This document shows, piece by piece, positions 4,499 through 41,208 of a stretch of 44,312 bases of DNA. The DNA is taken from contig PLHW01000047.1 of NCBI GenBank assembly GCA_003139095.1, positions 1-44,312 on the forward strand, written 5' to 3'. The position numbers and the translations under genes are program-made. Each line of letters starts with the position of its first letter. The first letter of the stretch is position 1. Source of the stretch: Acidobacteriaceae bacterium. Lineage in GTDB: Bacteria; Acidobacteriota; Terriglobia; Terriglobales; Acidobacteriaceae. The notes under the pieces are model-generated. The model saw only the letters and a program-made list of their open reading frames with translations, had not been told where the DNA came from and ran no database searches.

Positions 4499-5821
4499 CT
4501 AACCCGGCTCCTTCCCGCTGACGACTCCATTGAGAACTGTTAAAACACATCGATTCCCGCCAAACCAATATGCAATCTCGCGATAGTCCTTCACGTCGAA
4601 CATCGCCACGTCTGCGTCCTTCCCCGGCTCAATGCTGCCTTTGCGATCCGCCAACCGCAGCGCCCATGCTCCGTTAATCGTCGCCGCCGCGATCGCCTCT
4701 GCCGGCGCCATCTTCATGTGCGTACACGCCAGCGACATCGCCATCTGCATATTTAGCGTCGGCGACGATCCGGGGTTATAGTCCGTCGCCAGCGCCACCG
4801 CCGCTCCTGCCTCGATCAACGTTCGCGCCGCCGGATAGCGCGTCAGGCCAAGAAAGTAATTCGCTCCCGGCACAAACGTCGTGATCGTCTCACTCCGCGA
4901 CAGCGCCGCCAGGTCCGCGTCGTTGACGTAATCCATGTGGTCAAGCGATGCAGGCCGGTGGCGCAAAAACGGCTCCAGACGCGTCTCCCCTAGTTGCCCC
5001 ATGTGGGCCCGCAATGCCAGCCCGTTTGCCGCAGCCGCCTCAAAAATTTGCTCGGCTTCTTCCGCGCTGAATGCGCCACGATCGCAGAACACGTCCGCAA
5101 ACGCGGCCAGCTTTCGCTTTGCCACCGCCGGCATCATCTCACTGCAGATCATGTCCACGTATTCCTGAGGCCGCCCGCGAAACTCCGACGGCACCGTGTG
5201 GGCTCCCAAAAAAGTCGGCACCACCGTTCCCGCCCAACGCCGCGCCGCGCCGCGAATCGCTTCCAGCGACTTCACTTCCGATTCAAAACTCAATCCGTAT
5301 CCCGACTTGGCCTCGACAGTGGTGGTTCCGTGCGCGGCCATGGCCCGCAACCTGGTCAGCACTTTTTCGGTAAGTGCCGCTTTTCCGCTATTGCGCACAC
5401 CCTCAATGCTTGCCCGAATTCCGCCTCCAGCCTCGGCAATCTCCTCATAACTCGCGCCCGCAATCCGTTTCTCGAAATCGGTCAGCCGCGGATGCGCAAA
5501 CACCGGATGCGTATGCGAATCGACAAAACCCGGCAGTACGACCCGGCCCCGGCAGTCAATTTCGGTGATCTTCTTCCGATTTTTCTTCAGCCACGGATCG
5601 CGCAGCGCATCTTTAGTCTTACCCACCGAAACAATCTTCCCGCCCAGGCACAACACTGCAGCATCTTCAATGATTCCGAGTTCGGAAAGGGAAGCGCCGC
5701 GCCGCGGGCCTTCGCGGTCTGAATGCAGCGTTAGTAGCTGGCCGATGTTGGTCAGCAAGAGTGCTGAGATCTGACCTAACTTCCTCCGTGCCTCCGTGTC
5801 TCCGTGGTGGACGTTCATCAT
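4499..5821 (-). CDS. hutI: imidazolonepropionase
   Basis: Third enzyme of histidine degradation: hydrolyses 4-imidazolone-5-propionate to N-formimino-glutamate in the cytoplasm. It is an amidohydrolase-fold metalloenzyme. Metal-binding HTHPVFA, the substrate-region motif KSGYGL, LGAHTVP and [11 protein letters not shown] are all present. The ATG overlaps the hutU stop as ATGATGA, so the two genes are translationally coupled. At 440 residues it is about 20-30 longer than usual: residues 5-12 (HHGDTEAR) are encoded by an 8-bp tandem repeat at the gene junction, and family-like sequence begins near [16 protein letters not shown] inside that stretch is an alternative start. Confidence 0.95.
5783..5806. 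repeat. 8-bp tandem array NCTCCGTG at the hutU-hutI junction
   Basis: Three units in exact register on the plus strand: CCTCCGTG, CCTCCGTG, TCTCCGTG, followed by GTGG. It starts within about ten bases of the hutU stop and is translated as part of the HutI N-terminus. A related array lies at 10146-10177. Confidence 0.8.
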
Positions 5822-7512
5822 CGCGCCATCGGAATCAATACGCCGTTCTTCGCCGCAAACTCCTTTGCCTCCTCATACCCCGCGTCCACGTGCCGAATCA
5901 CTCCCATCCCCGGATCGGTCGTCAGCACGCGTTCAATCCGCTTCGCCATCATCTCCGTCCCGTCGGCCACCGTCACCTGTCCCGCGTGCAGCGAATAGCC
6001 AATCCCCACGCCGCCGCCATTATGTATCGACACCCACGACGCGCCCGCCGCCGTATTCACCAGCGCATTCAGCAGCGGCCAGTCGGCAACCGCGTCGCTG
6101 CCATCCTTCATGCTTTCGGTTTCGCGGAAGGGCGACGCCACCGACCCGCAATCCAAATGGTCGCGCCCAATCACAATCGGCGCCTTGATCGTGCCCTTCT
6201 TCACCAGATCATTAATTGCCAGCCCAAACTTCGCCCGCTCGCCATACCCCAGCCAGCAGATCCGCGCCGGCAATCCCTGAAACTTAATTCGCTTGCGCGC
6301 CAGCTCAATCCATCGCCGCAGGCTTACGTTCTCCGGAAACAGTTCCAGCACCAGCTCATCCGTCACCGCAATGTCCGACGCTTCGCCCGACAGCGCCGCC
6401 CACCGGAACGGCCCGCGCCCCTCGCAAAACAGCGGTCGAATATACGCCGGCACAAATCCCGGAAAATCGTACGCATTCTTCACCCCGCGCTGAAACGCAA
6501 ACGTCCGAATATTATTTCCATAATCGAACGTCACCGATCCCATCTTTTGCAGCCGCAGCATGCCTTCCACATGCCGCGCCATCGCATCCAGCGACCGCTC
6601 CTGATACGCCCGTGGATCGCGCGCCCGCAACTCCAGCGCCGCTTCCAGCGTCATCCCGTTCGGCACATATCCATTCAGCGGATCGTGCGCTGACGTCTGA
6701 TCCGTCAGAATATCCGGCACCACTCCGCGCTCCGCCAGCTCCGGAATTATGTCCGCGCAATTGCCCACCAGCCCGACCGACACATTCTCTTTCTTCCGCA
6801 CCGCATTCTTCAAAATGCGCAGCGCCTCATCCAGCGTGGTCACCAAAAAATCGCAGTACCCCGTCTTCAGCCGCTTCTTGATCCGCTCCGGATCGACATC
6901 GATCCCCAGAAACGCCGCGCCGTTCATCGTTGCCGCCAGCGGCTGCGCTCCGCCCATCCCGCCCATGCCGCCTGAAACGATCAGCTTCCCGCTCAAATCT
7001 CCGCCAAAATTCTTCGCGCCCGCCGCCGCAAACGTCTCGTACGTCCCCTGCACAATCCCCTGCGACCCGATATAAATCCACGATCCCGCCGTCATCTGCC
7101 CATACATCATCAGCCCGGCGCGTTCCAGTTCGTTGAACTTCTCCCAGTTGGAAAAATGTCCCACCAGGTTCGAATTCGCAATCAGCACGCGCGGCGCATA
7201 CTCGTGCGTCGTGAACACGCCCACCGGCTTGCCCGACTGCACCAGCAGCGTCTCGTCGTTCTCCAGCGCCTTCAGCGTGCGCACAATCGCGTGATAGCAA
7301 TCCCAGTTGCGCGCCGCCTTGCCCGTCCCGCCATACACCACCAGGTCCTGCGGACGCTCCGCAACATCCTCGTCAAGATTGTTCATAAGCATCCGCATCG
7401 CCGCTTCCTGCTGCCAACCCTTGCAAGAAAGCGAAGTGCCGCGCGGTGCGCGAATGTTAGGTTTGCTGGAACTGGAAAGGGCAGAGCTGGAAATTACGGT
7501 TTCGACAGGCAT
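5818..7512 (-). CDS. hutU: urocanate hydratase
   Basis: Converts urocanate to 4-imidazolone-5-propionate with a tightly bound NAD+, the second step of histidine degradation. The 564-residue reading has all family hallmarks: [14 protein letters not shown] near the N-terminus, the glycine-rich [40 protein letters not shown], and [23 protein letters not shown] with [12 protein letters not shown] near the C-terminus. I start at 7512 (MPVETVIS), which gives normal family length; the frame is open further upstream through a 12-bp tandem repeat that should not be coding. No strong ribosome binding site is seen. hutI follows with overlap. No hutH is present nearby. Confidence 0.96.
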
Positions 7513-40535: not shown

Positions 40536-41208
40536 TACATCCTCCTAAAACCGCTTGCAAGAACGGGCCCCGTACCGAAACCCTACTGCGCTCCAATGGA
40601 TTGACACCTGGGGAAGTATGGAAAGTGAGCTTTGCAGCGAGGATACACAAGTTTCACTTCTTAGCATAGTGTGAAAGGTTTTTCCCTCGGCTTCTGTTCG
40701 CATCTGCGGACCAACTTCTGCTCGCCGCGGACCGGACTGCTCCGCTCAAGAACTCCGGCGCGGGTTCTCCGCCAGTATCTATCTTGCGTTTCAGGCGGTT
40801 CGCGCCTTTTCTTGCGTACGGCGGGTCCTGGGTTCTGGTTGTGCCCCTCAGCGCCGCCAAAGCCGAAGGCCCTTGACGTAAGCAGATGCTGGAACTCACT
40901 TGGATACAGAGCACACTTCGTGCCACTGCTGCACTGGTTCTTTGGCAAAATAGACCGGCGTGGGAGCGCCGCGGCGCTCATTGTGCATATAAGTCATTGA
41001 GATAGAACACTTTAGAGCGAGAATCCCGGCAAAATGCCGATTCTAATATACCGCGGTGGGGGTAGGAGCGCTCCAGACCGGGCGCATATGGCCTGACAAA
41101 CTGGGTCGGGCGGATTCCCGACACTGCACGCGAGGACAGACGCCAGCAACTACTGCGCCTGTTAACGACTAACGACCAAGGACCAACGACCAACGACCGA
41201 CGACCGAC
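40536..41208. other. gene-free region between phosphoesterase and M16 genes
   Basis: About 670 bases. Open frames on both strands at 40654-41000 have no ribosome binding site and mirror each other, so I do not call them. The right end is a 7-bp array that abuts the stop of the M16-type gene. Confidence 0.5.
41163..41208. repeat. 7-bp tandem array YRACGAC, abutting the M16 gene stop
   Basis: TAACGAC, TAACGAC, CAAGGAC, CAACGAC, CAACGAC, CGACGAC in exact 7-bp register, then CGAC and the TAG stop codon (read on the minus strand at 41211-41209) with zero spacing. Confidence 0.85.

Follow-up and report, generated by a model that had tools for sequence, protein, structure and literature searches.

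The stretch of DNA analyzed here (the window) comprises 44,312 nt of a soil bacterium of the Acidobacteriaceae (contig C56, positions 1-44312, GenBank PLHW01000047.1, of a 5.53-Mb genome that is 98% complete and is called G000 below), and its intergenic spacers carry short tandem arrays of 7- or 8-bp words, several of which begin at or just past a stop codon. A first-pass annotation of the window had named eight such stop-linked arrays, and all eight are present. Two lie directly at a stop (0 bp), namely, a 7-bp array (TCAGTTN; 30245..30284, minus strand) behind a TPR gene, found by Tandem Repeats Finder (TRF) and under the threshold of our own array list, and a 7-bp array (GTCGTTG; 41164..41208, minus strand) behind an M16-like gene, for which an inverted partner above shuffles was not found. 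Two others contain the stop, as had been described: the stop of a pilP-like gene falls inside an array with a 14-bp period made of two 7-mers (GATTTGTAATTGGT; 20848..20889, minus strand), and that of a GspL/pilM-like gene within the first unit of a degenerate array (22781..22868, minus strand). The 8-bp array (ATTTAAMC; 13563..13597, plus strand) behind a rubrerythrin/VIT (mbfA-like) gene starts 3 bp past the stop, within the 0 to 10 bp given earlier, and that behind hutU (CACGGAGN; 5783..5806, minus strand), with no partner seen, starts 11 bp past it, against an earlier figure of about 10. Two distances needed correction: the 8-bp array (ARGTTTCA; 25694..25772, minus strand) behind pilC (T2SSF) begins 3 bp past the stop rather than at it, and the 8-bp array of the same word behind a radical SAM gene (35876..35911, minus strand) about 6 bp rather than 7 bp past it. 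As to the periods, "exactly" is too strong a word for the pilM-like array, whose TTTTGTA-like core recurs every 13 to 14 bp by eye and for which TRF gives a period of 13.

These single stop-linked arrays are real, but a convergent partner array had been missed. The pilC array faces a start-side convergent array (TGAAACYT; 25600..25653, minus strand) ahead of pilB (T2SSE), and the radical SAM array has its partner at 35831..35867 (minus strand) across a loop of 8 nt. Downstream of the pilP-like gene, the spacer holds a start-side arm (CCAATTACAAATCAC; 20727..20751, minus strand), and the spacer of the TPR gene holds, on its start side, a 7-bp array whose words (the reverse complement of GAGCTNC; 30116..30204, minus strand) belong to a different family. 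The last of these is one of three arrays previously set apart as not lying at a stop, together with an 8-bp array (CTCYGTGN; 10143..10177, plus strand) 72 bp ahead of a called start at 10250, start-side in orientation by eye, and degenerate 8-bp words (AACCTTGA; 16612..16673, plus strand) ahead of a called start at 16703, recognized by eye outside the computed array list. All three are start-side and, by eye, fit the wider layout described below.

Pfam supports the identity of hutU (urocanase domains), the rubrerythrin/VIT gene, pilB, pilC, the radical SAM gene, and the M16 gene; the match of the TPR gene, at 21.7 bits, is under the curated cutoff. The genes called pilM and pilP have no Pfam match, and their operon gives weak GspL, GspM, and PilN matches, all below cutoff; the gene after pilP, with no family match above cutoff, we read as pilin-like. 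A tRNA was the sole Rfam match in the window at the gathering score.

We read 1.64 Mb of G000 (∼30% of the genome, taken from parts of 8 contigs and from the window), calling genes with our own Markov-model open reading frame caller and detecting arrays by scoring exact matches at a fixed lag. Intergenic arrays favor a period of 7 (48 arrays), followed by 8 (20), 14 (12), 16 (10), 15 (7), and 12 (6), while coding DNA shows mainly periods in multiples of three (24 arrays of period 15) and only seven arrays of period 7 and one of period 8. Simulated third-order Markov sequence, matched in composition to the intergenic DNA of the first 1.24 Mb, gave no array at periods of 4 to 24. For the position tests, each of 130 spacer arrays of period 7, 8, 14, or 16 was shifted at random within its own spacer in 1,000 trials. 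The first-pass annotation had made this comparison of stop distances with chance the point on which anchoring should stand or fall, and in G000 the anchoring stands: 52 of 111 stop-flanked arrays lie within 10 bp of the stop, compared to 20.9 expected (maximum, 34), and start codons exert no pull (20 of 114 arrays, 18.0 expected). In relatives, the direction agrees without exceeding the null maxima, with 15 of 37 arrays near a stop in nine pooled species (8.1 expected; maximum, 17), 5 of 9 in G015 (2.4 expected; maximum, 7), and 2 of 3 in G019 (1.0 expected; maximum, 3). One could suppose that proximity to stops reflects exclusion only, with arrays disfavored near promoters and ribosome sites and hence collecting at 3' ends. 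The modest pull in short spacers (24 of 45 arrays, 14.6 expected; maximum, 24) is compatible with this, but in spacers of at least 400 bp, 10 of 26 arrays still come this close to the stop (≤10 bp) where 1.0 would be expected (maximum, 5), and the polarity of the words would be left unaccounted for; we therefore consider exclusion alone very unlikely.

That polarity was assessed by pairing arrays through shared 6-mers, with no word list, and dropping comparisons with fewer than three shared 6-mers, ties, and pairs less than 2 kb apart on the same contig. Among G000 arrays at most 20 bp from a gene, the sense agrees in 145 stop-stop pairs and disagrees in 12, whereas stop-start pairs agree in 2 cases and disagree in 161; start arrays of divergent spacers (n = 4) disagree with stop arrays in all 32 comparisons (0 agree). 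Orientation consistency is 0.92, compared to 0.50 ± 0.04 under a flip null (maximum, 0.66 in 1,000), and pooling G000 with its relatives gives agree-to-disagree counts of 261:42 for stop-stop and 17:356 for stop-start pairs. Gene-adjacent words have one nearly fixed sense, read outward from the gene, and words read in this direction are rich in AGT, GTT, GTC, GGT, CAG, and TCA. A general base skew of spacers was rejected as the cause, with A at 0.217 and T at 0.212 in array-free spacers past stops and T at 0.330 and A at 0.228 in stop arrays; trinucleotide skews of the two sets correlate at 0.60 over 27 word pairs, which points to a weak shared tendency. Stop codons within the words were ruled out as the cause by reasoning, as only some outward words contain them. 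Separately, neighboring array-bearing spacers (<5 kb apart in G000) share a word family in 9 of 35 cases, compared to 613 of 4,672 across contigs, a hint of local clustering.

Of the 150 spacers with arrays in G000 and its relatives, 22 have the top-strand order "+ -" and none the order "- +", with "+ - -" in 1, "+ +" in 2, and "- -" in 2, the remainder being single or unassigned (31 single-array spacers have no assignable sense). Both arrays belong to one word family in 21 of the 22 "+ -" pairs, compared to 4.7 expected; the families used for these assignments, for the same-family counts, and for the inner-motif counts below were seeded by hand from stop-proximal arrays. With one and the same word entering from either end, these spacers amount to long imperfect inverted repeats. 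In the hairpin test, restricted to spacers of 60 to 700 bp (95 of the 110 array-bearing tandem spacers), a score of at least 17 was reached by 42 of 95 array-bearing spacers, 21 of 587 array-free spacers, and 0 of 95 shuffled ones. The pooled counts are partly nonindependent through orthologous sites (the 22 pairs being 12 from G000 and 10 from relatives, the 42 hairpins 25 and 17), and one of the hairpins, C9:228684, is a plain palindrome. In the 42 hairpins, the 5' arm begins a median of 4 nt past the stop, the median arm is 33 nt, and the loop measures about 40 nt; about 18 nt separate the end of the 3' arm from the next start. Taken individually, 16 of 35 stop arrays have an inverted partner scoring at least 11, compared to ∼6.5 in shuffles, and 19 of 35 have none clearly above shuffles.

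One explanation for an anatomy of this kind is that the arrays form a stem-loop in RNA past the stop, serving mRNA 3'-end stabilization, attenuation of read-through, or as an unusual terminator. The arms begin a median of 4 nt past the stop, z scores of predicted folding fall below -2 for 17 of 35 gene ends with arrays compared to 34 of 150 control ends, and inverted repeats past stops are described as enriched in Escherichia coli, where they are mostly parts of intrinsic terminators (PMC6060812). A selected RNA hairpin should, however, show wobble-type (G-U) mismatches outnumbering the anti-wobble (A-C) type, and array hairpins have 51 against 66, while array-free hairpins have 30 against 20. 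T-tracts follow the 3' arm at 3 of 31 sites compared to 2 of 31 random positions, so that the arrays do not look like intrinsic terminators. Arrays are as frequent in divergent spacers (15 of 173) as in convergent spacers (15 of 160; tandem, 79 of 635), and the stop arrays that lack a clear inverted partner fit poorly as well. With neither a preference for G-U mismatches nor a following T-tract, both an RNA hairpin and a classical terminator are disfavored, and the RNA 3'-end protection suggested by the first-pass annotation gains no support from either test. Two further observations from relatives speak for RNA, namely, the recurrence of hairpins of differing sequence at the same operon sites, such as pilC-pilB, and the pairing at the pilP-pilin site (both below). 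On balance, we think an RNA stem-loop rather doubtful.

Named relatives of the PilC protein of the window, at 84 to 89% identity, come from metagenome-assembled genomes labeled Acidobacteriaceae, Terriglobia, Terriglobales, Acidobacteriales, or Acidobacteria gp1, with Candidatus Sulfotelmatobacter among the more distant ones; a Terriglobales acidobacterium is thus the most probable host. Across orthologous spacers, different words occupy one site in different species. At the pilC-pilB site, 79 distinct spacers of Terriglobales carry AGGTTTCA, CAGTTGC, GTAATTGG, TTGAGTGA, or TTAGCTC words, or else palindromes with GTAGAGACG, other palindromes, or short repeat-free sequence; hairpins scoring at least 14 occur in 12 of the 44 spacers long enough to test and in 0 shuffled ones, two of the 12 (L135 and L141) being palindromes by eye rather than arrays. 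We also note that in L130, L135, and L162 this spacer has GTAGAGACG...CGTCTCT palindromes where other species carry arrays, so that two kinds of hairpin use one site. Among orthologous tandem spacers available from at least 3 species, 10 of 15 have an array or a hairpin scoring at least 17 in at least one species, some of them wordless palindromes.

The layout behind the pilP-like gene is conserved in most of the genus. By reading, 13 of 15 relatives have start-side words that share the reading frame of the N terminus of the next gene, and in most of them the ribosome site and start codon lie inside the loop. The start-side array is itself translated in L301 to L314, where the repeat words spell N-terminal leaders (e.g., ...QITNYKSQI...). 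Arms pair better with their own partner than with that of other species (15.6 compared to 13.6; permutation p = 0.009, n = 15), in a test that keeps the hairpinless L315 and L316 and omits L303 for a gap, L299 (the locus of the window) for want of an in-frame ATG, L300 because its anchor could not be located, and L317 to L327 as members of another family.

Filled and empty sites among related species would suit remnants of a nonautonomous element resembling a miniature inverted-repeat transposable element (MITE), whose inverted ends are the word arrays and whose descent fixes the polarity. Words common to several families fit this too: a run of three TCAGYTN words is present in 24 of 149 Acidobacteriota genomes, spread over families (GTTTCARR words in 3 of 149). 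The "+ -" order also holds by eye in two distant families, where 12 loci picked for containing the words gave 5 "+ -" and 0 "- +" orders, with one misfit, L330, whose single array 40 bp from a start breaks the outward rule. Against such an element, no shared ends were found, the top inner motif (AAAACC) occurs in 8 of 145 cases with ∼1.4 expected, the pilC-pilB loop is absent from 28 of the 29 word-matched loci of its own genome (scores within the range of 20 shuffles; L295 is just above it), and the loops of the other hairpins are unrelated by eye, orthologous sites excepted. We rejected a conserved element core or loop on these grounds and regard descent from a MITE-like element as unlikely. 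A plasmid search with one array pair gave no match. In one of the 24 genomes with TCAGYTN words, G140, 41 TCAGYTN matches stand beside 41 matches of the reversed control, and some other repeat system is therefore present there.

What is observed directly comprises the positions and periods of the arrays, the polarity of gene-adjacent words, the same-word convergent pairs, their pairing potential, and the turnover of words at fixed sites. Based on the mismatch, T-tract, spacer-type, word-order, and shared-core tests, we favor a DNA-level repeat: the stop-anchored arrays would be those halves of an intergenic repeat arrangement that lie next to genes, the whole arising through slippage and inverted copying and being tolerated past stops, a reading to which we give about an even chance of being right. 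Slippage would lengthen and shorten the arrays in steps the size of a word; one array end may be copied in inverted form within the spacer through hairpin-mediated template switching; and arrays would persist where DNA change is tolerated, foremost directly past a stop codon, acting at the DNA level with no RNA function required.

Several findings weigh against this DNA-level reading. Neither a fixed polarity nor a word dictionary common to different sites follows from slippage and template switching alone. In 87 spacers, only one array of known sense is present, and the single arrays of divergent spacers have no side preference ("+" 4 left and 3 right, "-" 1 left and 2 right). Polarity weakens more than 20 bp from genes, where arrays nearest to a stop in G000 agree with the stop set in 21 cases and disagree in 33. 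When the units of one arm are permuted, the mean hairpin score falls only from 22.5 to 19.0, with 3 of 42 hairpins beating 95% of permutations; the two arms thus show no clear match in the order of their words, and the test does not establish copying from one arm to the other. Similarity of whole spacers between species is also higher on average than own-arm similarity (28.8 compared to 19.0), which fits vertical descent at some sites. A comparison that came out the other way (own-arm similarity of 0.71, ∼0.42 between species) is not relied on, since the arms had been picked by their own alignment and the whole-spacer comparison gave the opposite result.

The first-pass annotation knew of no report of arrays anchored at stop codons. 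Stop-proximal arrays and arrays overlapping the ends of open reading frames are in fact described for heptamers in PMC4692102 and PMC4679880, and the stop-proximal convergent layout is already known from Xanthomonas (PMC4692102). Relative to the open-license PubMed Central literature, what is new here is the phylum, the varied words mostly without a G-quadruplex pattern, and the turnover of words at fixed sites. G-quadruplex DNA had framed the discussion of the Xanthomonas case; that words mostly unable to form quadruplexes show a similar layout and orientation suggests that it is the layout, rather than the G-tract, that needs explaining. Word turnover at fixed spacers further provides natural replicates for asking whether bacteria need, or merely tolerate, a hairpin past certain stops. 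More speculatively, the outward polarity of convergent 7- and 8-bp arrays might be a quadruplex-independent rule across phyla (Acidobacteriota, Xanthomonas, Nostoc), revealing an unrecognized DNA-level process or class of nonautonomous elements that writes or keeps arrays from gene boundaries inward and reoccupies spacers with new words; we offer this tentatively and think it improbable as it stands.

Rehm et al. (2015; PMC4692102) reported heptamer arrays of GGGAATC and GGGGA(T/C)T in Xanthomonas and Nostoc. Downstream arrays lie mostly within 50 bp of a stop on the coding strand, some of them overlapping the stop, and two Xanthomonas genomes have 70 and 75 convergent pairs, the single or paired type usually being kept between both; for Nostoc, the paper reports few convergent pairs. 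In agreement with that description, the arrays of G000 are intergenic tandem repeats with 7 as the commonest period, those within 20 bp of a gene lie on the coding strand near stops and on the noncoding strand near starts, and paired arrays converge. They differ from it in that G000 has many word families of both 7 and 8 bp, that in the relatives studied here the same site holds other words or repetitive extragenic palindromic (REP) sequences, and that the stop pull was tested here against shifted positions. They also differ in that a G3 quadruplex pattern occurs in only 6 of 130 arrays, because of which quadruplexes were rejected as the basis of the G000 arrays and we regard these as sharing the layout of the Rehm heptamers without being members of that group. 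Apart from the arrays, G runs split by single A residues, possibly forming a quadruplex, are found at 10029-10055 of the window, where no genes are called.

MacGregor (2015; PMC4679880) described TAACTGA direct repeats in Beggiatoaceae, Cyanobacteria, and Bacteroidetes, including arrays that overlap the ends of open reading frames. In the BOGUAY genome, these lie mostly just ahead of start codons, with a single indirect repeat found, and indels between two Cyanothece strains are mostly in 7-nt steps. TAACTGA is the reverse complement of TCAGTTA, a TCAGYTN word of G000 and, among the matches listed, one of several variants inside some TCAGYTN arrays; moreover, our start-side arrays share the sense of TAACTGA ahead of starts. 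The anchor here is nevertheless the stop codon, starts exerting no pull above expectation, and convergent pairs are common.

REP palindromes with their REP-associated tyrosine transposases (RAYTs) likewise form intergenic hairpins behind genes (PMC3733652, PMC2817692), and two observations link them to our sites: the GTAGAGACG palindromes at pilC-pilB in some relatives and a RAYT gene in the window. This gene (13971-14534; NCBIfam NF047646, 110 bits, cutoff 80) has CCCACCCTTGC...GCAAGGGTGGG palindromes on either side. A separate palindromic repeat (GATTCCTCGCTTTCGCTCGGAATGACA) lies at ∼30200-30235, between the two arrays of the TPR spacer, and hairpins of the form TCATCCTGAGCG...CGCTCAGGATGA in G015 resemble it. 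Unlike REP sequences, the array hairpins have no fixed palindrome or constant GTAG/CGTC tag, the 42 hairpins beginning, by eye, with many different sequences. The BrickBuilt MITE of Porphyromonas gingivalis (PMC4596501) resembles the arrays in having tandem units within an intergenic element with inverted ends, but it is described as consisting of 23-nt minisatellite units with a defined leader and tail, parts that were not found in the arrays studied here.

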